Positions 42,876 through 59,849 of a stretch of DNA of 64,000 nucleotides are shown one piece after another. Every line of letters starts with the position of its first letter. The first letter of the stretch is position 1. The notes beneath the pieces are model-generated. The model ran no database searches. It was not told the origin of the DNA and saw only the letters and a list, made by a program, of their open reading frames with translations. A program made the translations under genes and the position numbers. Source of the DNA: Nitrospina sp. (GTDB lineage Bacteria; Nitrospinota; Nitrospinia; Nitrospinales; JACRGP01); NCBI GenBank assembly GCA_024648695.1, contig JACAVV010000030.1, forward strand, positions 1-64,000, written 5' to 3'.

Positions 42876-44375
42876 CTAATCCGCTTTCCCGTTTTGGTCA
42901 GGTTCGAACCAAATGAGTTGAGTCCTCTCGCTAATTTTTTCAGTTTTTTTAATTTTCAAGCCCTGCTTTTTTAAACCCTTATTAGAAATTAATTCAAAAT
43001 TATAAAATGCACTTTGTAGAGGGCGCATATCATCAGGGGAAAAAACAGCTACATGTATGTCTTCCTTTTTGAAATCACTTTTTTTTTGGAATATCCTCCT
43101 AAAAGAAATCAATTGAATCCTCTCTCTTTTATCGATCAAATAGTAGGTTAATAAAGAATGCCGGATTCCGGGGGATACCAATTTAAGTTTTTTAACGTTT
43201 GAAATCTCTTTCTTTAAAATTTTTGCGACTTTTAGGGAATCTTTATTGAAGCCCGCATGAAACCTAAGAACGCGATCTGTTATATTCTGAACTTTTAAAT
43301 TGAAACTTAAGGCCAGGAAGGCAATTGGAATAACAAGTTTAATCAATTTAATTGAAGTAGTGTGGAATGGAGACTCTTCGATTTTTTTATATACATCAAA
43401 AAATAATAGAATAGTAAAAAGAAGAAGAAAAATATACACAGGCCAAAAGTGGCGTTCCATAAAAATTATTTTGAAATAGGCCAATCCCCAAAAACCCATC
43501 ACGAAAAAAATAAAAAAATTATATAAAAAAATAAAATTTTTTAACTTTGGCAGGAAATATAAGATAGCGAAAAGCGCGATACACAAGGCTAAAGGGTTAA
43601 AATAGAATTGGGTCATATAATTCCAAAATTGTAATGGAAAGTCCCAAGCGTCTACCTGCCAACCATAATTTATTGCAAAGCTTTTTGTTCGAGTGAGTCC
43701 CCACAGCCAGTTTTTTTTTATTAATAAATTCATCCCCACCCAAATTATTGGGGCCAGGCTTAAAATAAAAACACAATAAAAAGCCTTTTGAATGGCTAAG
43801 CGTTTTTTATAGGTTTCGTAAAAAAGGAAAACAATGATTGGAGCAATCAAGACAGTGGGTTCCGGCCGGCTTAACCCTGCAAAAAGAATCCAAATACACC
43901 CTGGTTTAAGTTTTCCCAGATCAAAAAAATATAAAGCCCCTAAAACAAAAAAGGTGGAGTAAAGAACGCTATTACACGTCAATACCAAATGATAGAGCAT
44001 GGGAGAAATCAATAATATCACCCAGGCCAGCAAAGCCCACATTTCGCTCTTGATGGTTTGTTTCACTAATAAGTAAAAAATGAAACAGGTTCCCGCCCCA
44101 AATGCTATCGACAAGGACACGAATAAAATGGGGGCGTCGAAATAAGCGACGCCTAATCCAAAAATAAAAGCCAGGAATTTGTTTGAGTCTCCATACCAAC
44201 CGGGGGTCAGCAGGTTTAATTTGCTATTGACCAGAATTCCCCACTCATCCGGGTCAATGGATAAGGGATATTGAAGGGTACGAAAAACCAGATAAATTAT
44301 GGAAAAAAAGGCAAGGAAAAAAAGAACGGGAATCGATAAACAAGACTTTTCGGGAATCTCCTTTGGGTCAGTCAT
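42876..44375 (-). CDS. AT-rich multi-spanning membrane glycosyltransferase-like protein
   Basis: This 499-residue protein has about ten hydrophobic spans, starting at residues 14-32 and continuing to about 360, followed by a soluble lysine-rich C-terminus. The acidic motif DPDEWGILVNSK after TM1 resembles the first-loop acidic motif of GT39/ArnT/PMT-type lipid-linked sugar transferases, a fold seen in polysaccharide and lipid A loci. The sequence is visibly richer in A and T than the surrounding genes, suggesting recent transfer. It may serve the adjacent sugar cluster, though it lies outside its operon. Confidence 0.7.
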   Translation of the reverse strand: MTDPKEIPEKSCLSIPVLFFLAFFSIIYLVFRTLQYPLSIDPDEWGILVNSKLNLLTPGWYGDSNKFLAFIFGLGVAYFDAPILFVSLSIAFGAGTCFIFYLLVKQTIKSEMWALLAWVILLISPMLYHLVLTCNSVLYSTFFVLGALYFFDLGKLKPGCIWILFAGLSRPEPTVLIAPIIVFLFYETYKKRLAIQKAFYCVFILSLAPIIWVGMNLLIKKNWLWGLTRTKSFAINYGWQVDAWDFPLQFWNYMTQFYFNPLALCIALFAILYFLPKLKNFIFLYNFFIFFVMGFWGLAYFKIIFMERHFWPVYIFLLLFTILLFFDVYKKIEESPFHTTSIKLIKLVIPIAFLALSFNLKVQNITDRVLRFHAGFNKDSLKVAKILKKEISNVKKLKLVSPGIRHSLLTYYLIDKRERIQLISFRRIFQKKSDFKKEDIHVAVFSPDDMRPLQSAFYNFELISNKGLKKQGLKIKKTEKISERTQLIWFEPDQNGKAD

Positions 44376-44806: not shown

Positions 44807-45688
44807 GTGAATGATTTTGAATTGAATTCGGATCTGTCGGCAAACAAGATTCTTATCGCCGAAGTGTCGACCAGTCCGGGTCCGCGTAAATCCTTCGACA
44901 ACCGTTCAGCAGAGGCTAACGATCCAGAATTAGGCGAGGACAGCGGAGGAGCTCTGCTCGTCGGGGGCACACATGCGTTCGCCTGGGTGGCTGATGGTAC
45001 CAGTGATCAGGCTAATGTCGGACCTTTCAATTCGCGTCGCTTGGCGCAGGATTTGTGTCGGTTGTTTTCATCCTGCGTTATGGAATCATGGAGCGACTTT
45101 CATCGGGACCCACCCTCGGCAGGGGATGCCTTGACACGGTGGATGAATGATTCCATCATTCAGGTGTTGAAGGATTGGCAAAGACAATCGGCAAAGCAGG
45201 AACCTGTGCGCGAAACCCTGCTCACGCATTGGTCCGATCTGGAATCCGCTCAACAGGACGATCCGGCCAGACAATTGTTTTTCGAATTTTCAACGACCTT
45301 TTCTACCGCTCATATGGCGTCCAATGGGGATTTCCATGCTTGCAGTATCGGCGATTCTTTTTTGCTTCTGCACGGAACGTCCCAAACGGTGTGCTACGGA
45401 ATGGATCCGGTCAGCGTGACGTTTCGTCTTAAAATGGAAGAGGGCCGGGCGGAATGGAAACATTTTATCCCTTCGCCCCAGAATATCAACAGCACCGGTG
45501 TGGAGTTGGCCTTGCTCTCTACAGACGGGTCGCGTGACACCATACGTTTTCTTTACGAAACCCTGCAACGCGAAACGCCGGTCAATCGAAACCATTACCT
45601 GAACATCAAAAAGAACCTGCCCAAAATCAAACCCAAAACCCAGGACGACAAAACCCTGGCCCTGTTAGCGCGCTGGAATGAAAGTTAA
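44807..45688 (+). CDS. PP2C-type protein phosphatase at the head of the T6SS locus
   Basis: This 293-residue soluble phosphatase has the PP2C metal-binding pattern: EDSGGA near residue 45, WVADGTSD (Asp of the DG motif), CSIGDSFLLL, LLSTDGSRD and a final QDDKTLALL. It should remove phosphate from Ser or Thr. In other T6SS loci, a PppA phosphatase opposes the kinase PpkA on the Fha protein. Here the partner kinase is the next gene, which starts 11 bases before this stop, so the two are coupled. The start is GTG 44807. No Fha (FHA-domain) protein is in the window. Confidence 0.85.
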   Translation: MNDFELNSDLSANKILIAEVSTSPGPRKSFDNRSAEANDPELGEDSGGALLVGGTHAFAWVADGTSDQANVGPFNSRRLAQDLCRLFSSCVMESWSDFHRDPPSAGDALTRWMNDSIIQVLKDWQRQSAKQEPVRETLLTHWSDLESAQQDDPARQLFFEFSTTFSTAHMASNGDFHACSIGDSFLLLHGTSQTVCYGMDPVSVTFRLKMEEGRAEWKHFIPSPQNINSTGVELALLSTDGSRDTIRFLYETLQRETPVNRNHYLNIKKNLPKIKPKTQDDKTLALLARWNES

Positions 45689-46610
45689 GATCGGCTGGAA
45701 AACGCACCATTTCGACCCGGAAAGCATCGCCTGGCGACACCGCTCCTCCACACAAAGCCAGTTCGGCTTCTGGAAACCGGATGCCTCCTCCTTTTTCGTA
45801 AAACGGTTCCAAGGCACGCCCACGGGATGGAAATTGATCCGCTATTTGAGCCAATCGCCTATGCCGAACACTCCAAAAGTCCTGTTCGTAGCTGTGGACG
45901 GCCCCTTTTTCTACATATTCTCCGAACAATTGCATGGAGAAACCTTCGACCGGCTTTTGAACGCACAAAACGCCAAATTTCACACCGACCTGCTTTCCAG
46001 AGACAACCGCATCGCCCTGTTCTCTTCGGTGTTTGCTGTATTGCGCCTGCTCAACCGGCGCGGATTCTGGTACCCGGACCTGGATTTTTCCAACATATTT
46101 CTGGTACCCCATAAAACCGGGTACCACACCCACCTCATCGACCTCGACAGCGCGGTGGCCCACGACACCCCCTTTTGTCCCGACTTGGTCGCGCAAACCT
46201 TTTGGGAAGGCCTGGCCAGCACGTATCGGAAAATGGATATAAAATTCATCAAGAAAGAAGGGTCCCCTTTCTCCGTGCTGGTGCCCCACGGGGAGGCGCT
46301 CAACCAATCCATGCTGATTCTGCTCGCCTATGCCCTGCAGAGACTGGGTAAAGTGCCAATGAATGTTTCCCTGTACGATCCCCTGGTGCACCCGAAAAAC
46401 CCGAATTCCGCCGTGGTTTCTCAAATTCACCAGGACTTGGCGGATAATAAAAACTGCTGGGATCTGGTGCTGGAATGCTGTTCTTACCTGTTAAAAATCA
46501 ATACTTTAGATTTGAAAAAAAACATTCGGCAAAAAATGGCAGAACCCCTTCAAGGCCGGGGAAAACTCGGAAGGTGGCTGGATTCCATCTTCCGCCGACC
46601 CGTTGCCTGA
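45678..46610 (+). CDS. Divergent protein-kinase-like protein
   Basis: This 310-residue protein shows the core of an eukaryotic-type protein kinase: a beta-strand Lys at residue 42 (FFVKRF), then WYPDLDFSNIF with Asp134 and Asn139 of the catalytic loop, and LIDLDSA with Asp155/Asp157 in the metal-binding position. The catalytic loop has YPD instead of HRD and the DFG motif reads DLD, as in lipopolysaccharide-type (Kdo/RIO-like) kinases. A glycine-rich loop is not apparent. Pairing with a PP2C gene supports a regulatory role, perhaps on the T6SS. The substrate is unknown and a carbohydrate-kinase-like activity cannot be excluded. Confidence 0.7.
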   Translation: MKVKIGWKTHHFDPESIAWRHRSSTQSQFGFWKPDASSFFVKRFQGTPTGWKLIRYLSQSPMPNTPKVLFVAVDGPFFYIFSEQLHGETFDRLLNAQNAKFHTDLLSRDNRIALFSSVFAVLRLLNRRGFWYPDLDFSNIFLVPHKTGYHTHLIDLDSAVAHDTPFCPDLVAQTFWEGLASTYRKMDIKFIKKEGSPFSVLVPHGEALNQSMLILLAYALQRLGKVPMNVSLYDPLVHPKNPNSAVVSQIHQDLADNKNCWDLVLECCSYLLKINTLDLKKNIRQKMAEPLQGRGKLGRWLDSIFRRPVA

Positions 46611-46932
46611 ACCTCTTGAGAAGGCCATTTCAAGCCCCAAAAGCTTTTTCTTATTATTTTTACATTGGGTGTTATGCCTATAAAGGCGAAAAAAATAATC
46701 ATTTTTTTGCTATCAAATCCTTCCTGAGAAACATTCTCAATTTTGCCCGTTTTGACCTTTTATTTGAATTTCTGCAAGCAAAACTCAAATAAATTGAATG
46801 AGTTAATAAAAATGGAGAATTTTATTATGTTCAAAAATTTGTTTAAATTTGATGAAAAAGGTGCTATATTTTCAGAACATTAAAATCCATTTAAATTAAT
46901 ATCTTTAAACTTTCACCCCAAACGGGAACATC
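46611..46932 (+). other. 322-bp gap before tssL
   Basis: AT-rich DNA with a nine-base inverted repeat (TTTATTTGA / TCAAATAAA, 46759-46793) of operator type. I see no gene. A promoter for the structural T6SS genes probably lies here, but no clear sigma-70 pair is visible. Confidence 0.4.
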
Positions 46933-47712
46933 ATGACTTCCACAATTACTGGAGAGTCCCTGCTGGTGGCCCAGTTTCGAGAGTTTTACAACGAACTCAT
47001 TCGTATGAAGAAAATGGGCCAATTGACCGTTGCTCCGAAGAAGCTGAGTCTTGCGGATGCGGAAGAAGCCGATTCCGAGGCGGCGCGTTCGATCCGTACC
47101 ATCTGGCAGAGGTTGATGACGGTGCTCGAACAGCAGGAAATTGATGCCAATCGCCTGACTGGCGACTACTTGTTCGAATATTACAAGGATGTCCAGTTCA
47201 TTCTGGCTTCGCTGGCGGATGAGATTTTTCTGCATCTTGACTGGACGGGTAAGGATTTCTGGCAGAACAACCTGCTGGAGACGAAGTTGTTCAACAGTCA
47301 TAGTGCCGGCGACATTTTTTTCGAAAAGCTCGATAAATTGTTGCAGACGCGGGATCCGATTCACACGGAACTGGCGAAAGTTTACCTGCTCGCGCTCGCC
47401 CTGGGCTTTGAAGGCAAGTACCGGGGCAAGGAAGGGGCTCAGGAATACGAGCTCAACCACTACCGCGCCCAGTTGTTCGAATTCATCACACAAAGAAAAT
47501 CAAAAATAGGCACCCACGAGTTTCAATTGTTTCCCAGGTCTTACGCGAACACGCTGGACAAGGGGAAACAGAAAAAACTGCCCCACCCCAGAGCCTGGGT
47601 CTGGGGCTTGATTATTTTGGGCATCACCCTGCTGGGCTTGTCCCATCTGGTTTGGCTGGACACGACGTTTGATCTGAAGCTGGTATTGGAAGAAATCAAT
47701 TCTCTCAAGTAG
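46933..47712 (+). CDS. tssL: T6SS inner-membrane protein TssL (DotU/IcmH)
   Basis: TssL forms the T6SS membrane complex with TssM and anchors the baseplate. The 259 residues contain the DotU core (KDVQFILASLADEIFLH, WQNNLLETKLFNSHSAGDIFF, KVYLLALALGFEGKYRG) and one C-terminal membrane span (about residues 221-243). There is no peptidoglycan-binding domain, so cell-wall anchoring must come from elsewhere. It is 13 bp before tssM. The kinase gene ends 322 bp upstream, so the structural genes may have a separate promoter. Confidence 0.93.
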   Translation: MTSTITGESLLVAQFREFYNELIRMKKMGQLTVAPKKLSLADAEEADSEAARSIRTIWQRLMTVLEQQEIDANRLTGDYLFEYYKDVQFILASLADEIFLHLDWTGKDFWQNNLLETKLFNSHSAGDIFFEKLDKLLQTRDPIHTELAKVYLLALALGFEGKYRGKEGAQEYELNHYRAQLFEFITQRKSKIGTHEFQLFPRSYANTLDKGKQKKLPHPRAWVWGLIILGITLLGLSHLVWLDTTFDLKLVLEEINSLK

Positions 47713-47725
47713 ATAGGATTCCTTA

Positions 47726-50700
47726 ATGGACGTTCTTTACAGAATGGTGTCGTCGATCTCTTCGTACATGCCCTATTTCTTTGTCACGCTCGCCTTCACC
47801 GTCCTCATGATCGTGGGCTATATCCTGTTGATGGTCCGGTCTTCCAAAAAGAAGGCGGCCAAGGAGGCGGCTGATAAACCGGAAGAAACGCCCTCACCAG
47901 CAGAACCCGTCGCAGAAAAATCCAGAAAACAAAAAAGCAGAAAAGCGGTTAAAGGCGGAAAACTGGCCCGCTCTTTCAGTCACGCGGTCAGCGATTTAAA
48001 AAGCGCCATTCCCGGCAAAGATGCGTTGTATCAGGTGCCCTGGTTCCTGATGCTGGGCGAAACGGGGTGCGGAAAAACCACGGCGCTCAACAACCTGCCC
48101 CTCTCCCTGCCCCTGGGCAAACCGATTGGAGACGATTTCGAAAGCAGGGATGGTGTTCATTGGTGGTTCTACGATAAAGGCGTGGTCCTCGATGTCGACG
48201 GTCAATATATTCTGGATCCGCAAACGCTGGCTTCCGATGAAAAGGGATGGGACACGCTGATTCAGCTCCTTAAAAAGCATCGCCCGGAACGGCCTTTGGA
48301 CGGGGTCATTCTCACCCTGTCGATGGAGGATTTTTCGGGTCCACGGGAAGAATTGAACCTGCGCTCCATGCAGGCGGCAGAAAAAGCGAAAATCCTCTAC
48401 AACAAATTATGGACATTGCAAAGGGCTACCGGCATCTGTTTTCCGGTTTACCTGCTGGTGACCAAATCGGACCAAGTGACCGGATTTTCCAGCTTTGCGA
48501 ATGAAATTCCCGTAGACCAGCAAAACGGTATATTTGGCTGGTCCAGTCCTTACGGCCTCGATGTCAACTACACGCCTGAATGGGCAGACACGGCACTGTC
48601 TGAATTGTTCATGAACACTTATCAGGGCCAAATCGAACTCATCACCGACGGTATTCAGGTCGAGGACAAGGATGATTTTTTCATTTTTCCCTCGGAGTTT
48701 GAGGAGGTCGGCCATCCTTTAAAGATATTTTTGAATCACCTGTTTCAGGAAAGTGTGTATCACGACACTTTCTTCTTTCGCGGAGTGTATTTCACCGGTA
48801 ACGGGAATATAGAAACCACGTCGGATCAAAGACCGCAACCGGTTCCGGTGTCACCTCCGGCGGTGGACGAACCGCCACCTCTGGGACCTCCGGGAACGGA
48901 TCTGGAAGCGCCACCACTCGGGCCGCCCGGTTCGGATTTGGAGGAACCGCCCCTGGGGCCCCCAGGTTCCCCTATGGGTAGCCCTGCAGGTCCGCAACAA
49001 GGCGACGGACCCGAAACGGTGCCAACGTTTTGGGCAAAAACCCCACCCAGGCTACCAGCGGCGCCTCAGCCTCCTTTGCAGGAGGTGGCGATGCCTATGC
49101 CGATCAAACCGGCGGGCAAAGTGGTCCCGTTTTTCCTTAAAGACTTGTTTGACACAAAAATATTCAACGAAAAAAATCTGGCCCGACCGGTTGAAAAACG
49201 GTTCTTGTCCTTAAATCGCACCATCGTGATCGCACAGATCCTGTTGGTCCTGATGGTTTTGGTTGGCGGATTGGGACTGATCACCAGTTTCAATAATTTG
49301 ACCGCAAGTAAAGAATCACTGACACCGGTTCTGAGGCGGTCACTCAACGATCTGCATCAGGCCAAGGTGTACATCAAAAAAGGTGGGGAAGCGGAGCATA
49401 ATTTTTTCAATAACAGCGCCCTGAATTTGCTTGAGGGCATGACCAATATCAACACCAACACCTTCAAGTCGATTTTTATTCCCACTTCCTGGTTCGACAC
49501 CATTAACGAAGATATTCGGCGTGCGATGGCAGTGGCATACAACCGGATTATTTTGAAGTCCTTGTACTTCGAATTGAAAGAAAAAACGGAAGACCTGTTG
49601 GCGGAAAGCGAGTCCTTTTATCCGGGTTCCTCAGACGTGCCCGGTAATGTGGTCTATCTGGCGCAAATTCCCGAGTTTATCCAGCTTAAGCGCACTGTGG
49701 CCGAATTCATGGACATCGAGCGCAATGCCATTATGTACAACGGATTGCGAAGCTCGAAAAATTTAAAGGATCTGGGCTCGGTAGTGAACTTTCTTTATGG
49801 CGTCGAATTGCCTGCTGAGTTTTTTACCAACGCCATGCTATACCATCAGGCGCTCGACAAAACCACGTACAAAGTATTCACACCTCAGGAATACAAAGAC
49901 CGTTCCATTCCTATGATCCAGCGCATCGTGGCGCGCTTGTACGACCAGTTGTTCCGGGCCAATCCGCTGGAACGGCAACTGCAAAAACTGGCATACAAAA
50001 TCGATCAGCTACGAAGCGGGCAAATTAAGTCCTGGCCGGTCAGCACCACCCTTCGGGAGTTTCAAAATGTGGTGGACGCCATCGATCGCGAGGAAGACCT
50101 GCTGGCAAATCCGGAATACGCCTGGCTCACCCGCACCAAACTGGATTTGGGAAGCGAATACAAACATGTCCTGACTGCTATTCAAAAATCAGAATTTTTC
50201 GGCGAGGAACTGCGTTCGGATATTGAAGACATCGGCCAAAATGCCTTTCAGATTCTGAGAGGAGAATTGACCAGCAAACAGGCCTCTCTGACCGGTCCCT
50301 TATTAAAAAAGGGAACCTCCTTTTTTAACGGTCAGCTCGCCAGTGATCCGGTTTCAAGCAAATTCAAAAAAGAACTGGCGAGTAAAAAGAGCGATCTGGG
50401 TTTTCCCGGCAAAAACGCCAATCCTTTGAGTGTGCGCCTGGAACTGTCTCCCCGTGTCATGAACCTGAAATCGGCGCTGAGCAATTTTCTGGACCAGCCC
50501 TTCATCACTCTGGAGCTTCCGAGCAAAACATTCGTCACCGAACTTCCGCAGGGAGCGCAATTGTTTTGGGACCGGAAGTTTCTCGTCGAGGCCGCCGATC
50601 TGTACGAACAATATGTCCTTTTTGAACAAGCGGGCCTTGTTGAGTTTCCGGCTTTGCTGAAGAAACTGATACAAACCGTGGCGCTGAAAAAACTTGAGCA

Positions 50701-52258
50701 GAACATGTTCCGCCTGGTCAGCCAGAGCCAGAACTACAAACCGGCAGAAAAGGGATTCAGCTTCATCGGACTCGATGGGGATATCGGACCCGAGGTCACC
50801 AATTTCAAGGAGGCGTCGAATCATTTGGGGTTGTTGATCGACATTTTCAACAAACTGGATTTCATCGAATCGTCCTGGTCGCTCTCGGAGGTGTTGACTT
50901 CCCAGGCGGGTAACCTCTTACATACAGTCGATCAGGTATTGGAAGAGGAGGGCTTTTACGCTTATCAGGAAGGCACTTTCGCCTGGTGGGACGGTGTGTC
51001 GCCGGTATCCCTCACCGCCTTTGAAGCACGTAATTCGAAGGAGCTGGAATATTACCTGGACATTCAACGCACCCGGATCAAACATCTCGCCACCGATTAC
51101 GCGACGCCGATCATTCGCTTTCTGGTGGATCGCACGATGATGGAAGGATCCGACACACAACCCTTGATGGCAAAATGGCAGGCTCTCATTATGGAGCTCA
51201 AACGTTACGACGCGCGCAAAGCCGGCAATTCGGTGACCCTGCTGGAAAAATTCATTTTGTTCGATATGGACAAGATCGCTCCCGACCAGCGGTGCCAGAG
51301 TCCGGCACTGCCCGAAATGCGCGATCCGTCGGGAGATTTCTTTCTGGAAAAAATGTTCCGCCTGCGAAGTGAGATTCTCAGTCAGTGCAAGGTGCTCATC
51401 AATGATGAGGTATTGACCGATTATTCGGTGCTGGAAGCGTATTTCAATCGCAATCTCGCAGGCAAGTTTCCGTTTGCTCCGGTCAGTCTGGACCAGGTTT
51501 TTACCGAAGCCAGTCCGGAAGCGATTCGCGAATTTTACATTTTGCTGGATGAATACAAAAAAAACAGTATGCCTTTGTTAGAAAAAAGCGTGCGGTTCGG
51601 CTTGTCATCGGAGAAGGCCCTCGATTTTATGGATCAAATGGAAGAAATCCGGGATTTCTTTTCGACCTTCGTGGGTAAAGGCAAAGCCAACCGCCAGCCT
51701 CAATACGCCCTGGAAATTGATTTCAGGGTCAATCAGGCCTTTGAAAGAGGGGCCAACCAGATCATCGACTGGAACCTGAGAGTGGGACAGGATCAGTTCA
51801 ATTTTCGGTCGCCCAAACGAGCGGTAACCTGGACTTACGGAGACCCCATCAAGCTTTCGCTCCGTTGGGCCAAGGATTCCCAATACCAGCCGCTGGATTT
51901 CACGACGGCGAATGCGAAGGTGACCAATCGGGTGGTGACGTACGAGTTCAACAACCGCTGGTCGCTTATCAGCCTGTTGCGGTTGTATAAGAGCCAGCCC
52001 GAGGATTTCGAACGGTTGGTCGATCCCAAGCCACATACGCTCAAGTTTGAAATCGGTACTTCCAAGCGGGAATCGGTGATTGAATCGATTCAGGAGGCAC
52101 CGGATGAAGAGGTCTGGATGCGGGAAAACCTGGTGCGCTTTTTCGTGCGTACCGTGGTGATGAATCGCGAAAAGAATGAGATCAAGTTTTTGCCGGAGTT
52201 TCCGGTGGTAGCGCCAGGATTGAAAGAGAATTATGCCTCGGCACGATTCCGAAACTGA
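47726..52258 (+). CDS. tssM: T6SS membrane-complex protein TssM (IcmF)
   Basis: This 1,510-residue IcmF-family protein is clearly longer than the usual 1,100-1,200. The N-terminus has a membrane hairpin at about residues 15-37. It carries a P-loop GETGCGKT (111-118) in an NTPase-like domain with DGVILTLSMEDFSG and VYLLVTKSDQVTGF. A proline-rich insert at about 372-455 has repeats of PPLGPPG. A third membrane span is at about 497-520, followed by a long periplasmic C-terminal region. TssM spans the envelope, contacts TssL and, in canonical systems, the lipoprotein TssJ. It probably couples sheath firing to the envelope. Confidence 0.93.
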   Translation: MDVLYRMVSSISSYMPYFFVTLAFTVLMIVGYILLMVRSSKKKAAKEAADKPEETPSPAEPVAEKSRKQKSRKAVKGGKLARSFSHAVSDLKSAIPGKDALYQVPWFLMLGETGCGKTTALNNLPLSLPLGKPIGDDFESRDGVHWWFYDKGVVLDVDGQYILDPQTLASDEKGWDTLIQLLKKHRPERPLDGVILTLSMEDFSGPREELNLRSMQAAEKAKILYNKLWTLQRATGICFPVYLLVTKSDQVTGFSSFANEIPVDQQNGIFGWSSPYGLDVNYTPEWADTALSELFMNTYQGQIELITDGIQVEDKDDFFIFPSEFEEVGHPLKIFLNHLFQESVYHDTFFFRGVYFTGNGNIETTSDQRPQPVPVSPPAVDEPPPLGPPGTDLEAPPLGPPGSDLEEPPLGPPGSPMGSPAGPQQGDGPETVPTFWAKTPPRLPAAPQPPLQEVAMPMPIKPAGKVVPFFLKDLFDTKIFNEKNLARPVEKRFLSLNRTIVIAQILLVLMVLVGGLGLITSFNNLTASKESLTPVLRRSLNDLHQAKVYIKKGGEAEHNFFNNSALNLLEGMTNINTNTFKSIFIPTSWFDTINEDIRRAMAVAYNRIILKSLYFELKEKTEDLLAESESFYPGSSDVPGNVVYLAQIPEFIQLKRTVAEFMDIERNAIMYNGLRSSKNLKDLGSVVNFLYGVELPAEFFTNAMLYHQALDKTTYKVFTPQEYKDRSIPMIQRIVARLYDQLFRANPLERQLQKLAYKIDQLRSGQIKSWPVSTTLREFQNVVDAIDREEDLLANPEYAWLTRTKLDLGSEYKHVLTAIQKSEFFGEELRSDIEDIGQNAFQILRGELTSKQASLTGPLLKKGTSFFNGQLASDPVSSKFKKELASKKSDLGFPGKNANPLSVRLELSPRVMNLKSALSNFLDQPFITLELPSKTFVTELPQGAQLFWDRKFLVEAADLYEQYVLFEQAGLVEFPALLKKLIQTVALKKLEQNMFRLVSQSQNYKPAEKGFSFIGLDGDIGPEVTNFKEASNHLGLLIDIFNKLDFIESSWSLSEVLTSQAGNLLHTVDQVLEEEGFYAYQEGTFAWWDGVSPVSLTAFEARNSKELEYYLDIQRTRIKHLATDYATPIIRFLVDRTMMEGSDTQPLMAKWQALIMELKRYDARKAGNSVTLLEKFILFDMDKIAPDQRCQSPALPEMRDPSGDFFLEKMFRLRSEILSQCKVLINDEVLTDYSVLEAYFNRNLAGKFPFAPVSLDQVFTEASPEAIREFYILLDEYKKNSMPLLEKSVRFGLSSEKALDFMDQMEEIRDFFSTFVGKGKANRQPQYALEIDFRVNQAFERGANQIIDWNLRVGQDQFNFRSPKRAVTWTYGDPIKLSLRWAKDSQYQPLDFTTANAKVTNRVVTYEFNNRWSLISLLRLYKSQPEDFERLVDPKPHTLKFEIGTSKRESVIESIQEAPDEEVWMRENLVRFFVRTVVMNREKNEIKFLPEFPVVAPGLKENYASARFRN

Positions 52259-52339: not shown

Positions 52340-53473
52340 ATGGCTTCTTCAAAAACATTGACGGTCGATATGGAACAGTTGATGGCACCCATCGCGGACG
52401 GACAACCCACCGGGGAGTCTCTGCGCTATGAGGGCACCTACGACGAAATCAAAAAGTTCCGCGAAGAAGATGACCCTAATCTGGATCAGGGAATCTGGCA
52501 GACTAAATTAAAAAAAGCCGATTGGGAGTCGATCGAGAAAACCTGTCTGGCATCGTTGAAAAGCAAGTCCAAGGATTTGCAGGTCGCCGCCTGGTTGATG
52601 GAAGCCTGGGTGCACATATACGGGTTCACCGGCATCAATCGCGGACTCCAGTTACTGTTTAGTTTATGCGACACCTTTTGGGAAGACCTGTATCCAGAAA
52701 TCATGGAAGGCGATCTGGAACTACGGCTATCGCCCTTTTTCTGGATCAACGAAAAACTGTCCATCCGTGTGGCGCTCATTCCCATCACGCAACCGGAGAC
52801 GGGTGACCCGAATTGCTATTCGCTGGTGGATTGGGAAAACGCCAGCCGAATGGAGAACCTGGTCAAGCGGGAAACCGGTAAGGAAAGCCCGGACCTGTCA
52901 AAACTCGAACTGACGCTGGATCACATCCGGGCCAATGCGTCATTGACTCCCGTTGACCGGTTAAGGACGATTTACAAGGAATTGGAAGAGTCGCTGAAAC
53001 ATCTGGACACGCTTGGAACCTTTTTGGACGAACAATGTCAAAACGATTCACCAAGCCTGAGCCGATTCAAGGAAACACTGGAAAAAATTCAACGCTTAAT
53101 CGTGGAGTTTGGAGGCGCCCCAATGGATGAACCCAAGGCCGAAACGGAAGAACACGCGGAACAACAACCGGCAGAAGGAGATGCCGTGGCGCAGGCCGAA
53201 TCCAAACCCGGTTCCGGTTCCGCAATGGCCATGGCCAAAGCCCCCTATTCCGGATCTATTCAGAATCGTGCCGAAGCATATCGCGCGCTCAGCGACGCCG
53301 CGGAATACCTCATGCGTACCGAACCGCACAGCCCGGTTCCTTATCTGGTCAAGCGTGCGGTGAGCTGGGGCAATTTGCCACTGACTGAACTATTGCAACA
53401 ATTGGTGCAGGATCCAAATTACCTTAACTGGATATATGACTTATTAGGAATGAATGACTCGGAAACCAAATAG
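52340..53473 (+). CDS. tssA: T6SS assembly protein TssA (ImpA family)
   Basis: This 377-residue protein has an N-terminal ImpA domain (GESLRYEGTYDEIKKFREED, then DLQVAAWLMEAWVHIYGF) and a variable acidic/alanine-rich middle (residues about 255-300: EEHAEQQPAEGDAVAQ). The C-terminal helical region is RAEAYRALSDAAEYLMRTEPH. TssA nucleates sheath/tube assembly at the baseplate and stays at the distal end in some systems. It lies 81 bp after tssM, and a 292-bp gap separates it from tssB. Confidence 0.9.
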   Translation: MASSKTLTVDMEQLMAPIADGQPTGESLRYEGTYDEIKKFREEDDPNLDQGIWQTKLKKADWESIEKTCLASLKSKSKDLQVAAWLMEAWVHIYGFTGINRGLQLLFSLCDTFWEDLYPEIMEGDLELRLSPFFWINEKLSIRVALIPITQPETGDPNCYSLVDWENASRMENLVKRETGKESPDLSKLELTLDHIRANASLTPVDRLRTIYKELEESLKHLDTLGTFLDEQCQNDSPSLSRFKETLEKIQRLIVEFGGAPMDEPKAETEEHAEQQPAEGDAVAQAESKPGSGSAMAMAKAPYSGSIQNRAEAYRALSDAAEYLMRTEPHSPVPYLVKRAVSWGNLPLTELLQQLVQDPNYLNWIYDLLGMNDSETK

Positions 53474-53765: not shown

Positions 53766-54302
53766 ATGGGCGAAAGCACTCAGCATAAATTGAGCCGCAT
53801 CCGTCCCCCCAGAGTACAGATCACATATGATGTGGAAATTGGGGATGCAATCCAAATGAAAGAACTGCCTTTTGTCGCAGGCATCATGGCCGATCTTTCT
53901 GGTAAACCCGAAGAACCGCTTCCCAAACTGATTGACCGAAAGTTTGTGGAAATCGATCGGGATAACTTCAACGACATTCTGGAGTCCATTGAGCCGCGCC
54001 TGACGTATCAGGTCGAAAACAGGCTGGCTGATGACGACACCAAATTCAACGTTGAATTAAAGTTCAAGAACATCGACGATTTTGGTCCGGTGGAAGTACT
54101 CTCTCAGGTGGAGCCTTTGCGCAAATTGTTCGAAGCCCGCCAGAAGTTGAGTGACATGCTGACCAAGCTCGACGGCAACGACGACCTGGAACGTTTGTTG
54201 GGCGAAGTTGTTGAAAACACTGATGGCTTGAATGAACTTAAAACCGCTACCCAGAAAGAAGAAGGTGGGGACGATGCCCCGGCTGAGGAAGGAGGAGAAT
54301 AA
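53766..54302 (+). CDS. tssB: T6SS sheath small subunit TssB (VipA)
   Basis: TssB pairs with TssC to form the contractile sheath. The 178 residues have the family start (HKLSRIRPPRVQITYDVEIGDAI), GIMADLSGKPEEPLPKLIDR and KFVEIDRDNFNDILESIEPRLT. The C-terminal acidic tail ends DDAPAEEGGE. The ATG has a strong GGAAGGAGGGG ribosome-binding site. Its last base overlaps the tssC start (TAATG), giving 1:1 coupling. Confidence 0.96.
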   Translation: MGESTQHKLSRIRPPRVQITYDVEIGDAIQMKELPFVAGIMADLSGKPEEPLPKLIDRKFVEIDRDNFNDILESIEPRLTYQVENRLADDDTKFNVELKFKNIDDFGPVEVLSQVEPLRKLFEARQKLSDMLTKLDGNDDLERLLGEVVENTDGLNELKTATQKEEGGDDAPAEEGGE

Positions 54303-55777
54303 TGGCTGAAGAAACTGCTGCTGAAGGTGGAGCCGCAACGGCCGAACTGAGTCTGCTCGACCGTATCATTCAGGAAGGTAAAATGATCCGTGACGAATCC
54401 CAAACGGAATTCGCCAAGGACCTGATCAACGAATTCGTCACCCAGATCCTGGAAGGCACCATGACCGTGAGTAACGACACGGTTGCCATGATCAATGCGC
54501 GAATCGCGCAAATCGACGAGTTGTTGAGCAAACAATTGAACGAGGTCATGCACCATCCGGACTTTCAGAAAATGGAAGGTTCCTGGAAAGGTTTGCACTA
54601 CCTGGTCATGAATACGGAAACCGGAACCCAGCTTAAACTCCGGCTCCTGAACGTGACGCAAAAGGAACTGTTGACCGATCTCGAAAAGGCAACGGAATTT
54701 GACCAAAGCCAGCTCTTCAAGAAAATCTACGAAGAGGAATATGGAACGTTCGGGGGCAATCCCTACTCCATGCTGGTGGCGGATTACGAATTCGGTCGCC
54801 ATCCGCAGGACATGGCCCTGGTCGAAAAGTTGTCTAACGTGGCCGCCGCGGCGCATGCGCCTTTGATCGCCGCCGCCGGTGCAAAACTGTTCGACATGGG
54901 TTCCTTCACCGAACTGGGTGTGCCGCGCGACCTCGCCAAGATGTTCGAATCGCTTGAACTCATCAAATGGCGTTCGTTCCGCGACAGTGAAGATTCCCGC
55001 TATGTCACCCTGACGATTCCGCATATTCTGATGCGTCTGCCTTACGGACCCGAAACGGTTCCGGTGGAAGGCTTCGATTTTGTGGAAGATGTGGACGGCA
55101 GGGACCACAGCAAATACCTGTGGGCCAATTCCTCCTGGGCGTTGGCACAACGGATCACCAACGCGTTCTCCCTGCATGGCTGGTGCGCCGCCATGCGTGG
55201 TGTGGAAGGCGGCGGTTTGGTGGAAGGGCTTCCCGCTCATACCTTTAAAACGGATGAAGGGGATATCGCTCTCAAATGCCCGACGGAAATCGCCATCACG
55301 GACCGTCGCGAGAAAGAGTTGTCGGACCTCGGTTTCATCACCCTCGTGCACTGCAAGGGAACTGATTACGCGGCCTTTTTCGGTGGGCAGACAACCAACA
55401 AGCCCAAGGTGTATAATACCAACGAGGCGAATGCCAATGCCCGCATTTCGGCACAGCTTCCCTACTTGTTGGCGGCCTCACGTTTCGCCCACTACCTGAA
55501 AGTTATCATGCGCGACAAGATTGGTAGCTTCATGACCCGTGAGAATGTGGAAGTCTACCTCAACAACTGGATTTCGAATTACGTCCTGTTGAGTGACGAC
55601 GCCGCACAAAACACCAAAGCCAAGTATCCTCTGCGCGAAGCCCGCGTGGATGTGGCGGACATTCCGGGCAAACCAGGTTGTTACAAAGCTGTGGTCTTCC
55701 TCAAGCCGCATTTCCAGCTTGAAGAACTCACCGCTTCCATCCGGCTCGTGGCCGAATTACCGCCGCCTGCCGGTTAA
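54302..55777 (+). CDS. tssC: T6SS sheath large subunit TssC (VipB)
   Basis: TssC is the main sheath protein. The 491 residues match the family: FQKMEGSWKGLHYLVMNTETG, DYEFGRHPQDMALV, RMPYGPETV-like LRLPYGPETVPVEGFDF, and the C-terminal YPLREARVDVADIPGKPG ending with FQLEELTASIRLVAELP. The sheath contracts on firing and is taken apart by ClpV. It is followed by a 198-bp gap with two hairpins before hcp. Confidence 0.97.
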   Translation: MAEETAAEGGAATAELSLLDRIIQEGKMIRDESQTEFAKDLINEFVTQILEGTMTVSNDTVAMINARIAQIDELLSKQLNEVMHHPDFQKMEGSWKGLHYLVMNTETGTQLKLRLLNVTQKELLTDLEKATEFDQSQLFKKIYEEEYGTFGGNPYSMLVADYEFGRHPQDMALVEKLSNVAAAAHAPLIAAAGAKLFDMGSFTELGVPRDLAKMFESLELIKWRSFRDSEDSRYVTLTIPHILMRLPYGPETVPVEGFDFVEDVDGRDHSKYLWANSSWALAQRITNAFSLHGWCAAMRGVEGGGLVEGLPAHTFKTDEGDIALKCPTEIAITDRREKELSDLGFITLVHCKGTDYAAFFGGQTTNKPKVYNTNEANANARISAQLPYLLAASRFAHYLKVIMRDKIGSFMTRENVEVYLNNWISNYVLLSDDAAQNTKAKYPLREARVDVADIPGKPGCYKAVVFLKPHFQLEELTASIRLVAELPPPAG

Positions 55778-55866
55778 ACATTTAATACCTGCATAAGTAT
55801 TCGGTGGAAAATCTAAATGATTTCCAAAAGAGTTTCGAAAACTTGTGCAACTGGCTTTACAAATCC

Positions 55867-55945
55867 TCGGGCTGGCCTCAGGGTCGGCCCGATGTAAGAT
55901 TTTCAATATTTCATTTGCCGTTGGAATCGGCGCCATCGATTCCAA
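55867..55945 (+). promoter_or_regulatory. Paired hairpins between tssC and hcp
   Basis: Hairpin 1 (55867-55892) has an 11-base stem, TCGGGCTGGCC with GGTCGGCCCGA, including two G-U pairs and a TCAG loop. Hairpin 2 (55921-55945) has perfect nine-base arms TTGGAATCG / CGATTCCAA with a seven-base loop. The AAAGGAAG site of hcp follows 19 bases later. Hairpin 1 resembles a partial terminator; together they could set hcp level or mRNA stability. Confidence 0.6.
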
Positions 55946-55975
55946 TTCAAAAACTGCTAAAGAAAGGAAGCAACT

Positions 55976-56461
55976 ATGGCAATTGACATGTTCATCAAGA
56001 TTGACGGGATCCAGGGTGAAAGTACCGATTCGAAGCATAAAAACGAAATCGAAGTGCTTTCCTACAACCATGGAGTTTCCCAAATGGCTTCGATGACACG
56101 AAGCTCCACGGGTAGTGGTACCGCTGAACGGGTATCGCATCAGGAGTTCGTTTTCTCCAAGGAAATGGACAAATCCACTCCCGTATTCAACAAGTTCGTG
56201 TGTGTGGGCGATCATATCCCCACCATTCACTTTTACTGCCGCCGCGCAAAGGGGGATTCACCGGTCGATTTCATGACTTATGAATTGAAAGACACGGTCA
56301 TCACCTCCTACTCCGTCTCCGGAGGCTCAGGCGTTCCCACGGAAACGATTTCGCTGAACTACGGTGAAATCAAATGGACCTATGTGGAAACCGACGATTC
56401 GGATGCCACTAAAGGTAACGTGGAACATGGATGGAGTATTATCGACAACAAACTCCTGTAA
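55976..56461 (+). CDS. hcp: T6SS tube protein Hcp (TssD)
   Basis: Hcp hexamers stack into the inner tube that is fired with VgrG and effectors. This 161-residue protein has the family features (MFIKIDGIQGESTDS, DKSTPVFNKFVCVGDHIP, EIKWTYVETD). It is secreted, so it needs high expression. The start has AAAGGAAG nine bases upstream. tssE begins six bases after its stop. Confidence 0.95.
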   Translation: MAIDMFIKIDGIQGESTDSKHKNEIEVLSYNHGVSQMASMTRSSTGSGTAERVSHQEFVFSKEMDKSTPVFNKFVCVGDHIPTIHFYCRRAKGDSPVDFMTYELKDTVITSYSVSGGSGVPTETISLNYGEIKWTYVETDDSDATKGNVEHGWSIIDNKLL

Positions 56462-56467
56462 CGCTCC

Positions 56468-56950
56468 ATGGCCAGGAAACACAATAGTGAAAGCGCTAGG
56501 GCTACGCTCCTGGATCGTCTGGTTGATCTTCAACCAGACGTGTCCAGGGAACCCCGCCCTTTGAGAACTCTGGACCGCGCGGCCCTAAGGCAGTCGGTCC
56601 GCCGCGAATTGCTCCGCCTGTTAAATACCCGTTGCTCCCAAAGGCCAGACGTCGTAAACTCTCAGGAACGTACTGTGGTCAATTACGGTATCCCCGACTT
56701 TTCGCACCTGACTCCGCAAAACCTGGAAGACCATAAAATTCTTTCCAGGGACCTTGCCCGCACCATCGCCGCTTACGAACCTCGACTTCAGGATATTCAC
56801 GTCATCATCGAAGAATACAATAAAGACAAAAAATCTCTGATCGCCAGAATCAACGCCCTGATCGTTGTAGAATCCATTCGGGAAGCCGTTTCGTTTCCAT
56901 TTATGATCCAACTCAAAGATAGGGATTTTGACCTCAATGCCACTCGATAA
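56468..56950 (+). CDS. tssE: T6SS baseplate protein TssE (gp25-like)
   Basis: TssE resembles phage T4 gp25 and starts sheath polymerisation at the baseplate. The 160 residues have the typical SVRRELLRLLNTR and VVNYGIPDFS, and a C-terminal region ending FPFMIQLKDRDF. It is the short component that contacts TssF and TssG. Its end overlaps the tssF start by 14 bases, which couples the two. Confidence 0.93.
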   Translation: MARKHNSESARATLLDRLVDLQPDVSREPRPLRTLDRAALRQSVRRELLRLLNTRCSQRPDVVNSQERTVVNYGIPDFSHLTPQNLEDHKILSRDLARTIAAYEPRLQDIHVIIEEYNKDKKSLIARINALIVVESIREAVSFPFMIQLKDRDFDLNATR

Positions 56951-58748
56951 TTATGAAGAACTGCTTCCGTATTACGAAAGGGAACTGACCTATCTGCGCA
57001 AGATGGGTTCTGCGTTCGCAAGCCGCTACCCGAAAATTGCCAGCCGTCTGGAACTGGGTATGGACCATTGTCCCGACCCCAATGTGGAACGCCTGATCGA
57101 ATCGTTCGCGTTTCTTACCGGCAGACTGCAACACAATATCGACAGCCAGTTTCCTGAAATCTCTTCGGCTTTGCTCGGCATCCTGTACCCGCATTTTTTG
57201 AATCCGGTACCCTCGATGTCGATCGCGCAATTTGCGGCCGATCCCGATCAAATGAACCTGACGGGTGGATTTAATATAAAAAAGAACACGCCCTTATCGA
57301 CGCAGAATGAACAAGGGCAAACGGTCCGGTTCAAAACCTGCTATCCGGTAACACTGTGGCCGGTACGTGTGACCTACGCCGGGTTTGAATCTACGGACCA
57401 GTTTGATTTTCTCGACCAGACTTCGAATGTGGTCACGGTCTTGCGATTGCGCCTGCAGACCACGGCTGAAAATTTTGCCGAGGCCGGGCTGACCGATTTG
57501 CGATTCTATTTGCACGGAGAAGGTGCGTTGCCGCTCATTCTTTATGAACTGCTTTTCTGCAACCTCATCGACGTGGTTCTGTTGCCGGACAAAAAATCGC
57601 CGCCGGTGTATTTGCCGAAAGACGCCGTTCAACCGGTTGGATTCGGAACGGATGAGGATGTGCTTCCTTATCACAAGTTTTCACATCCGGGCTACCGCTT
57701 ACTTCAGGAATATTTTACCTTCGAAGACAAGTTTTTATTTTTCGATCTCAAACACCTCAATCGGCACGGATCGGACAAGTCGTTCGACGTGCTGATTTTG
57801 CTGGACCAGAGACCGCGCAACAACCTGGTGCTGGATGAGGACACGTTTTCTTTAGGCTGTACACCCATCATCAATCTGTTTTCAAAAACATCGGAACCGA
57901 TCCGTTGGGACCACCGGCAGACGGAATACCAGTTGATTCCGGACATTCGCCGTGAACGGACCACAGAGATCCATTCGGTATTAAAAGTATCGGGAACTTC
58001 GGATCCGAGCGACGAGACTCAGGTGTATCAACCATTTTATTCCTTCACTCACGAGATGGAGCAGGGCGATCATCAGGCTTTCTGGCATGCGCGCCGCGAC
58101 CATACAGGAAAAAAGAATTTCCCCGGAACGGATATGTTCCTGACGTTTCTGGATTTGCAATTCAAGCCCACGCAACCTCCGAAAGAAGCTATTTATGCGC
58201 ACACCCTCTGCACTAATCGGGATCTTGCTGAGCAGTTGCCTGAACGGGCGATACTGAAACCGGAAGAGGCGGCGCCGGTCACCAACATAACCACCCTGAC
58301 CAAACCGACCCGGCAATTGATGCCGCCGTTATCGGGTGCGGCGCAGTGGCGTCTGATTTCGCATTTATCACTCAACTTTTTATCGCTCAATAATGAGAAG
58401 GCGGGATTGAAAGCTTTTCATGAAATCCTGGGTTTGTACGGATTCGCCAAGCGCCGCTCCACCACCCAGCAAATTCTGGGCATTCGCGAAATGGAATCGC
58501 GCAAAGTAGTACGCCGAATCGGCCAAAGCGCCTGGAAAGGATTTTCCCGTGGCGTGGAGGTGACACTCACGTTTGATGAAAGCGTTTATGGCGGCAATAG
58601 CGCATTCCTGCTGGCCTCGGTTTTGAACCACTTTTTACCTCTTTATGCATCCTTGAACACTTTCACTCAGCTTGTCATTAAAAGCCATCAACGCGAAGGG
58701 ATCTGGAAACAATGGCCACCCATGGTTGGGGAACAGATCATCCTCTAA
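56937..58748 (+). CDS. tssF: T6SS baseplate protein TssF
   Basis: TssF makes the baseplate wedge with TssG and TssE. The 603 residues begin MPLDNYEELLPYYERELTYL, then FASRYPKIASRLEL and DPNVERLIESFAFLTGRLQ, and end near LNHFLPLYASLNTFTQLVI. The start is ATG 56937; a TTG three codons earlier is in frame but less likely. It overlaps tssE upstream and tssG downstream (37 bases), so tssE, tssF and tssG form a coupled unit. Confidence 0.95.
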   Translation: MPLDNYEELLPYYERELTYLRKMGSAFASRYPKIASRLELGMDHCPDPNVERLIESFAFLTGRLQHNIDSQFPEISSALLGILYPHFLNPVPSMSIAQFAADPDQMNLTGGFNIKKNTPLSTQNEQGQTVRFKTCYPVTLWPVRVTYAGFESTDQFDFLDQTSNVVTVLRLRLQTTAENFAEAGLTDLRFYLHGEGALPLILYELLFCNLIDVVLLPDKKSPPVYLPKDAVQPVGFGTDEDVLPYHKFSHPGYRLLQEYFTFEDKFLFFDLKHLNRHGSDKSFDVLILLDQRPRNNLVLDEDTFSLGCTPIINLFSKTSEPIRWDHRQTEYQLIPDIRRERTTEIHSVLKVSGTSDPSDETQVYQPFYSFTHEMEQGDHQAFWHARRDHTGKKNFPGTDMFLTFLDLQFKPTQPPKEAIYAHTLCTNRDLAEQLPERAILKPEEAAPVTNITTLTKPTRQLMPPLSGAAQWRLISHLSLNFLSLNNEKAGLKAFHEILGLYGFAKRRSTTQQILGIREMESRKVVRRIGQSAWKGFSRGVEVTLTFDESVYGGNSAFLLASVLNHFLPLYASLNTFTQLVIKSHQREGIWKQWPPMVGEQIIL

Positions 58749-59767
58749 AAGATTTTCTTTTTGACGAGACCTACCGTTTTGATTTTTTCCAGGCGGTAAA
58801 ACTTCTCGAAATCATCTATTCTGAAAGAACGCCGGTCGGCACGCAACCGGATCCGCTGAAGGAAACGGTGATGTTCAAGTCGCGGGTGAGCGCCGGTTTT
58901 CCAGCATCGGAAGTGCAAATGCTGGAAGGGCCGGATAATGGCTACCCGGCGCAAATGGTGGTCAATTTCATGGGGCTTGCAGGTGCCAATTCGCCTTTGC
59001 CCGCATCTTACACCGAATTATTGCTGGAACGGGTATCGCGCAAGGATTTTTCCCTGCTCGAGTTTTTGAATATATTCAATCACCGCCTGGTTTCCCTGAT
59101 GTACCGCATTCGCAAGAAGTATCACATCGGGTTCGAATTCGCTCCACCTTATGAAGACCATATAGCCGAGTTCCTGTATTCCCTGGTGGGGCTTGGGACG
59201 GACGGATTGCAACAGCGCATGCGGGTGAAGGACCGGGCGCTGGTTTTCTATACGGGATTGTTCAATCAGAAACCACATTCCATGATAGGATTGGAATGTA
59301 TCCTGAGTCACTATTTCCAGTTTCGGGTGAAAGGGGAACAGTATCACGGGCACTGGTATCCTCTGGAACCGGATCAATACACCCTTATTGGCCGGACCGG
59401 GCAAAACCAGTTGCTGGGACAGGATGTGGTTTTGGGAACGCGCGTCTGGGATATTCAGGGACGGTTCCGTCTTCATCTGGGCCCCTTGAATCTCAGGCAG
59501 TTTTTGGATATTTTACCTATTGGCACCGGCTACGCTCCCCTGTGCGAACTGACACGATATTACGTCGGCCAGGAATTCGAATTCGACTTTCAACTCACTC
59601 TCAATGCGGAGGAAGTTCCTGCTTCACAGCTGGGAGGGGAATTGGGTCCCCGCCTGGGCTGGACTGCTTATTTGAAAACCCGGGATTTCACAAAGAACGA
59701 TTCGCAGGTCAAACTGACTCTCCAATCAGGAGCTTTTCTCAACATCGCTCACAAGGAATTTGAATAA
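58712..59767 (+). CDS. tssG: T6SS baseplate protein TssG
   Basis: TssG completes the baseplate wedge with two TssF. The 351 residues carry the family start (FDETYRFDFFQAVKLLEII), then VNFMGLAGANSPLPASYTELL and FNHRLVSLMYRIRKKY. They end KLTLQSGAFLNIAHKEFE. The last 56 bases of the gene region are copied, imperfectly, 79 bases downstream before clpV. Confidence 0.95.
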   Translation: MATHGWGTDHPLKDFLFDETYRFDFFQAVKLLEIIYSERTPVGTQPDPLKETVMFKSRVSAGFPASEVQMLEGPDNGYPAQMVVNFMGLAGANSPLPASYTELLLERVSRKDFSLLEFLNIFNHRLVSLMYRIRKKYHIGFEFAPPYEDHIAEFLYSLVGLGTDGLQQRMRVKDRALVFYTGLFNQKPHSMIGLECILSHYFQFRVKGEQYHGHWYPLEPDQYTLIGRTGQNQLLGQDVVLGTRVWDIQGRFRLHLGPLNLRQFLDILPIGTGYAPLCELTRYYVGQEFEFDFQLTLNAEEVPASQLGGELGPRLGWTAYLKTRDFTKNDSQVKLTLQSGAFLNIAHKEFE

Positions 59768-59849
59768 TAGCTTGGTCATCTAAAACTTCATATTGACTCT
59801 CCAATCGGGAGCCTTCCTGAACATCACTCACAAGGAATTTCTATAATGG
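59715..59849 (+). repeat. Imperfect direct repeat of the tssG 3' end
   Basis: Copy 1 (59715-59770, inside tssG and its stop) and copy 2 (59794-59849) are each 56 bases long, 79 bases apart, with eight mismatches by eye. Copy 2 contains AAGGA at 59832-59836 and the clpV start codon at 59846. Confidence 0.85.

Follow-up and report, generated by a model that had tools for sequence, protein, structure and literature searches.

A vWA-like, PP2C-like and divergent kinase gene triad associated with type VI secretion in Nitrospinota, a candidate portable phosphorylation switch

The stretch of DNA analysed here (the window, 64,000 nucleotides, positions 1-64000 of contig C19 in the 4.2 Mb, 97% complete draft genome G000) contains a type VI secretion system (T6SS) cluster headed by two overlapping genes for a PP2C-like phosphatase and a divergent kinase. 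Together with a zinc-finger/vWA-like (vWA-Zn) gene outside the window, these make up a conserved triad that, in the family to which the window belongs, is split between two T6SS loci. On balance, and by a small margin, we favour the view that this triad controls assembly or firing of the T6SS by reversible phosphorylation, replacing PpkA/PppA/Fha and working without Fha. A broader proposal, for which we would claim slightly less than even chances, is that a previously undescribed and portable triad of vWA-Zn protein, PP2C and YPD/DLD kinase serves unrelated machines in Nitrospinota, the T6SS and the magnetosome, and provides the sole kinase-phosphatase control of T6SS in the lineage of the window, without PpkA or Fha. 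To our knowledge, phosphorylation control of T6SS is known essentially from the proteobacterial PpkA/PppA/Fha pathway; in Nitrospinota, a triad of soluble proteins that includes a divergent kinase would, if the proposal is true, represent a second route to such a switch, and the triad reading offers named residues and substrates for testing.

Both genes of the pair were located as the sequence-only reading had described them, overlapping by 11 bases and lying upstream of tssL. The features of the locus are as follows.

44807-45688, + strand: gene for a protein phosphatase-like protein of PP2C type (293 aa, GTG start), which opens the + strand cluster
44939-44995, + strand: PP2C motifs ED (Asp45) and VADG (Asp63), expected metal-binding aspartates; E44, D45, D63 and G64 invariant in the alignment
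45524-45649, + strand: PP2C motifs TDG (Asp240) and DDK (Asp281), expected metal-binding aspartates; D240, G241, D280, D281 and K282 invariant
45678-45688, + strand: 11-bp stop/start overlap of the PP2C-like and kinase-like genes, ATGAAAGTTAA; same 11 bp in seven genomes, 4 bp in G062
45678-46610, + strand: divergent protein-kinase-superfamily gene, 310 aa, ATG start, no predicted membrane span
45801-45803, + strand: codon of Lys42 (VAIK-type lysine, FVK), invariant in eight homologues
46068-46100, + strand: catalytic loop WYPDLDFSNIF (Asp134 and Asn139, equivalent to HRD...N); W131, Y132, P133, D134, L135, D136 and N139 invariant
46140-46148, + strand: DLD (Asp155, equivalent to the metal-binding Asp of DFG; IDxDS); D155 and D157 invariant
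46933-47712, + strand: tssL (DotU family), PF09850 E 6.2e-31; candidate substrate or partner
47726-52258, + strand: tssM (IcmF), PF14331 E 5.1e-47, TIGR03348 E 1.1e-61
52340-53473, + strand: tssA, TIGR03363 E 1.1e-96
53766-56461, + strand: tssB, tssC and hcp, with VipA, VipB and HCP Pfam matches
56468-62509, + strand: tssE, tssF, tssG and tssH/clpV, with TIGR03357, PF05947, TIGR03347 and TIGR03345 matches

Since the upstream gene (42876-44375), which has no Pfam match, is encoded on the opposite strand, the pair heads the + strand cluster. The start of tssL follows 322 bp 3' of the kinase-like gene, and the order then continues with tssM, A, B, C, hcp, E, F, G, clpV and vgrG. A promoter-like match at 46842-46870 falls between the kinase-like gene and tssL, although such matches are hardly above chance. 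In each of the seven T6SS-linked pairs of orthologues the overlap has the same length of exactly 11 bp, indicating conservation rather than an ORF artefact arising by chance, and its presence implies probable translational coupling of the two genes. Two further observations concern the T6SS genes themselves. TssM (47726-52258) has an insertion at about residues 378-425 that is rich in proline and carries near-repeats of PPLGPPGSDLE type. Just past the window end on the same contig, vgrG is followed by a gene for a MORN-repeat protein (L035:4766-5800), possibly an effector, adaptor or immunity gene, and relatives encode similar repeat proteins 3' of vgrG (L019:368-1291, L028:9951-10796).

The PP2C-like protein of the window matches Pfam PP2C_2 with an E-value of 6.1e-5 and 23.1 bits, about one bit short of the cut-off of 24, and the same model matches six of eight orthologues, with a best E-value of 1.3e-7. 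In the alignment, all eight homologues keep the motifs ED, ADG, GD, DG and DDK, among whose residues are the aspartates expected to bind metal. A PDB search with the family profile retrieved no PP2C structure, and the AlphaFold model, calculated from a three-sequence alignment, has a mean pLDDT of 37, too low for use.

For the kinase-like protein, the Pfam Pkinase score is 13.8 bits (cut-off 31.7). A profile of its eight homologues, however, retrieved protein kinases from the PDB with an E-value of 1.9e-6 and the WbdD kinase with 1.5e-5 and, the catalytic residues being invariant in all eight, the earlier assignment to the kinase fold stands. Single-sequence phmmer matches of the window proteins in the PDB turned out to be spurious, making family profiles necessary. 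Across the family, the Pkinase model matches seven of eight members and the Kdo/WaaP model six of eight, about equally well; the best Kdo/WaaP match has an E-value of 1.5e-4, one orthologue reaches 17.8 bits where the cut-off is 21.3, and there is a weak KdkA match, but the window protein itself has no Kdo (PF06293) match at E 1. An AlphaFold model from a three-sequence alignment (pLDDT 47) is informative for the N-lobe, where strands and helix follow one another in kinase order, but poor in the remainder, so that it cannot decide the kinase type; kinases rank first in a Foldseek search with this model, which at TM-scores of about 0.25 counts as weak support for a kinase fold. No segment of the protein is strongly hydrophobic (the highest Kyte-Doolittle mean over 19 residues is 1.11), in keeping with the initial observation that it has no membrane span.

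That reading had also noted the loss of the HRD and DFG signatures. It was right in that YPD and DLD stand in their place, but the catalytic set is nevertheless present, with Lys42, Asp134, Asn139 and Asp155 invariant in 8/8 homologues. Exchanges of the H to Y and of F/G occur in active kinase-like families such as Kdo/WaaP. With all four of the presumed catalytic residues in place, 'divergent kinase' is a safer label than 'pseudokinase' for a protein that, judged by these residues, is not clearly dead.

The pair had been proposed as the functional unit and is indeed conserved, but the unit is larger: the vWA-Zn gene, located outside the window, is found in exactly the eight genomes that have the kinase-like gene. 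Five genomes (G006, G007, G009, G021 and G062) have the three genes in the contiguous order vWA-Zn, PP2C, kinase, while G000, G003 and probably G001 have them distributed over the loci of tssK and tssL. In the window's genome, tssK resides on contig C23, directly followed by the vWA-Zn gene (G000:C23:180382-181410); the two genes are likewise neighbours in G003, and in G001 both are located at contig ends. The encoded protein has a Cys-rich, zinc-finger-like N-terminus followed by a DGSxS motif (DTSGS in G062), a candidate metal-binding (MIDAS) site, and it is on this N-terminus and the DxSxS-like motif that its provisional description as vWA-like rests; neither a Pfam VWA match nor a PDB vWA profile match was obtained.

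The operon of G006, G007, G009 and G021 comprises, in this order, tssK, a vWA gene, a full PP2C, a right-handed beta-helix protein, a canonical Ser/Thr kinase (STK), vWA-Zn, PP2C-like and kinase-like genes. These four relatives thus have a second, canonical vWA-PP2C-Ser/Thr kinase set with its beta-helix protein directly after tssK (L018:2847-8974, L027:4479-10848), the kinase of which ends in a C-terminus that looks FHA-like by eye. The canonical vWA and STK of this set were not found in G000, G001 and G003.

The distribution of the genes follows that of the T6SS closely. Among 61 genomes of the order, the PP2C-like and kinase-like genes occur in the same seven, all of which belong to the eight with a T6SS sheath gene, and neither was found in the 53 relatives of the same order without a sheath gene. 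Across 77 Nitrospinota genomes, the kinase-like gene is present in eight, the seven close T6SS-bearing genomes and the distant G062 (a 39-residue match in G028, E 7.5e-4, was discounted for a stop inside it), and the VipB sheath gene in nine; both are found in seven, a co-occurrence with a Fisher p of ~1e-7 if shared ancestry is ignored. The check proposed at the outset, a search for the pair beside T6SS genes of other genomes, gave strong co-occurrence and synteny for 7/7 close orthologues: the PP2C-like gene precedes the kinase-like gene in each, within the order the pair always lies inside T6SS operons, and in six of the seven it is placed ~8-9 kb upstream of the sheath gene tssC. G007 differs: here the pair and tssK are in one operon, and the block from tssK to the kinase-like gene is 377 kb away from tssL-vgrG. 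The genes upstream of the pair vary, with T6SS and kinase genes in G006, G007, G009 and G021 and cytochrome genes in G001. Pairwise distances of the kinase-like and PP2C-like proteins correlate with r 0.98, and those of both with TssL and TssA with r 0.91-0.97, as expected for co-inheritance. This synteny could, on the other hand, be operon heritage within one lineage.

The pair had been expected to remain at T6SS loci, which holds for all seven close orthologues, but not for G062. In this genome, which has no VipB match, contiguous vWA-Zn, PP2C and kinase genes are found on the minus strand between mamB and mamA (L066:12318-15979), with mamM, mamE, mamO, mamP and mamK as further neighbours; most of the mam matches score below NCBIfam cut-offs, but they are mutually consistent. 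The cluster lies at L066:10871-18122 and L067:373-9770 (contig C70). The location of the triad in a magnetosome cluster of a genome without VipB indicates that the module is portable rather than T6SS-specific, and its embedding in a dedicated mam cluster suggests that it was recruited to serve the host machine. All clusters in which the triad was found serve to assemble a large machine or an organelle. This agrees with a portable control module, with a single case on the non-T6SS side; the position of that triad between mamB and mamA suggests that phosphorylation may control magnetosome formation too.

Kinase-phosphatase control of T6SS has precedents. In Agrobacterium, PpkA-dependent phosphorylation of TssL at Thr14 switches the system (PMC3953482); phosphorylation of TssL as a T6SS switch, as well as T6SSs lacking a complete PpkA-Fha-PppA set, are also described in PMC10482370. 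As in the PpkA/PppA/Fha pathway of threonine phosphorylation, a kinase and a PP2C phosphatase are here encoded among T6SS core genes, the PppA feature being represented by a PP2C with a PP2C_2 match of E 6.1e-5 and metal-binding motifs in eight homologues. PpkA, however, is a Hanks-type Ser/Thr kinase with a membrane span, whereas the kinase of the window is divergent, soluble and below the Pkinase cut-off, and the 11-bp overlap of phosphatase and kinase genes is a further difference. While PpkA of P. aeruginosa has been described with a vWA domain (PMC3224232), the vWA-like region in our case belongs to a separate zinc-finger protein whose gene lies near tssK, so that each of the three domain classes found in PpkA and PppA seems to be represented here by a separate soluble protein.

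Fha had been reported missing from the locus, and this extends to the T6SS genes of the genome: the only FHA-domain gene found in G000 is on contig C42, near clpP-clpX-lon. The same contig contains an ORF of repeated PTHVGVF/SPRTWGCFF peptides (L099:399-677), probably a translated CRISPR repeat array. No PF00069 (Pkinase) match over the cut-off was found anywhere in G000, so that we rejected the idea of a canonical STK module elsewhere in the genome, and none in G003; the single weak Pkinase match in G000, on contig C7, resembles what we take to be UbiB-type proteins. With neither a membrane-spanning Hanks kinase nor a T6SS-linked Fha, the triad is placed by us outside the PpkA/PppA/Fha pathway, as a variant form of the kinase-phosphatase control already known for T6SS.

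Triads of vWA, PP2C and STK genes are also known from the TerY-P type, which accompanies tellurite and stress genes. TerY-P triads consist of three adjacent genes, as is likewise the case in G006, G007, G009, G021 and G062, but the triad described here differs in its linkage to T6SS or a magnetosome cluster and in its highly divergent kinase and PP2C. Pfam found no TerY_C domain in the vWA-like proteins, nor did annotation of the neighbourhoods reveal tellurium genes. Our search of the open-access literature brought up no report of TerY-type triads occurring with T6SS, nor any of the present triad in a magnetosome cluster.

For the mechanism, we infer kinase activity, a substrate, the direction of the switch and a role for the vWA-like protein as follows. 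The divergent cytoplasmic kinase would phosphorylate a component of the membrane complex or of the baseplate, with TssL, TssM or TssK as candidates by position; the co-translated PP2C would strip the phosphate from the target of the kinase; and the vWA-Zn protein, encoded beside tssK, could recruit the enzymes to the baseplate as their sensor or scaffold. The suggestion of an alternative T6SS switch, first made for the pair, is partly supported: its link to T6SS is strengthened by co-occurrence and synteny for 7/7 close orthologues, and neither a T6SS-linked Fha nor a canonical Ser/Thr kinase over the Pfam cut-off was found in the genome of the window. It has to be amended in two respects, as the switch would be a triad and is not exclusive to T6SS.

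Other explanations are conceivable for the same genes. The kinase-like protein may be a pseudokinase that binds nucleotide or only its partners and regulates or scaffolds an active PP2C, while another kinase adds the phosphate. The replacement of HRD and DFG would agree with this, as would the canonical STK in the same operon of G006, G007, G009 and G021, which could supply the phosphate; yet all eight homologues share the VAIK lysine, the catalytic Asp and Asn and the metal-binding Asp without exception, including those of G000 and G003, in which no STK over the cut-off was found, and the exchanged positions are ones at which active Kdo/WaaP-like families tolerate change. We consider this explanation unlikely, at perhaps one chance in several. 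Only a shade less probable is that the triad constitutes a general signalling module with TerY-P-like logic, which travels with T6SS operons but targets other than T6SS proteins. The distant G062 triad, in its magnetosome setting, and the company that TerY-P triads keep with stress genes speak for such a module, but the triad is absent from the 53 relatives of the order without a sheath gene, it always resides in T6SS operons within the order, split clusters retain its parts with tssK or tssL, and even the G062 copy occupies a dedicated cluster.

The possibility of a carbohydrate kinase, raised at the outset, takes the form of a small-molecule or lipopolysaccharide kinase of Kdo/WaaP type acting on surface glycans, with the pair belonging to the polysaccharide genes upstream. 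The profiles are of little help in this matter, as Kdo/WaaP and protein-kinase models match about equally. Kdo/WaaP and WbdD-type kinases are part of the kinase superfamily, with sub-threshold similarity to the kinase-like protein; the WbdD kinase is among the best PDB matches, and genes of glycan type do lie upstream of the pair in the window. Gene context, however, argues against this assignment, since the upstream genes are different in every relative, the association with lipopolysaccharide genes is not consistent, the kinase-like gene is coupled to a protein phosphatase, and it is missing from relatives that have no T6SS, even though surface glycans are a general feature. A glycan kinase is therefore, in our estimate, quite improbable, well behind the two explanations above. 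We also rejected a toxin-immunity or effector role, given the lack of effector features, the core-like conservation and the co-inheritance.

Returning to the triad as a portable control module, a single GTDB pattern scan for relatives yielded Nitrospinaceae only, and searches of plasmid and viral contigs found no relatives, giving no sign of carriage by plasmids or phages; the triad matches no defence system in PADLOC. Two further T6SS genomes of the phylum, G052 and G067, are without the triad; in the stretches annotated near their T6SS genes (the G067 contig is short), no relative of either PP2C or kinase was recognised. With T6SS but no triad in G052 and G067, and a triad but no VipB in G062, neither strictly requires the other.

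As a separate observation, the system of G052 (L033:3065-7908) belongs to another T6SS subtype: it includes genes for an eCIS-core domain protein, DUF3540 and pentapeptide repeats, together with an ORF of 730 aa that matches TssC, and contig C25 of G007 contains a second system that resembles it in having DUF3540 and a long TssC-matching ORF.
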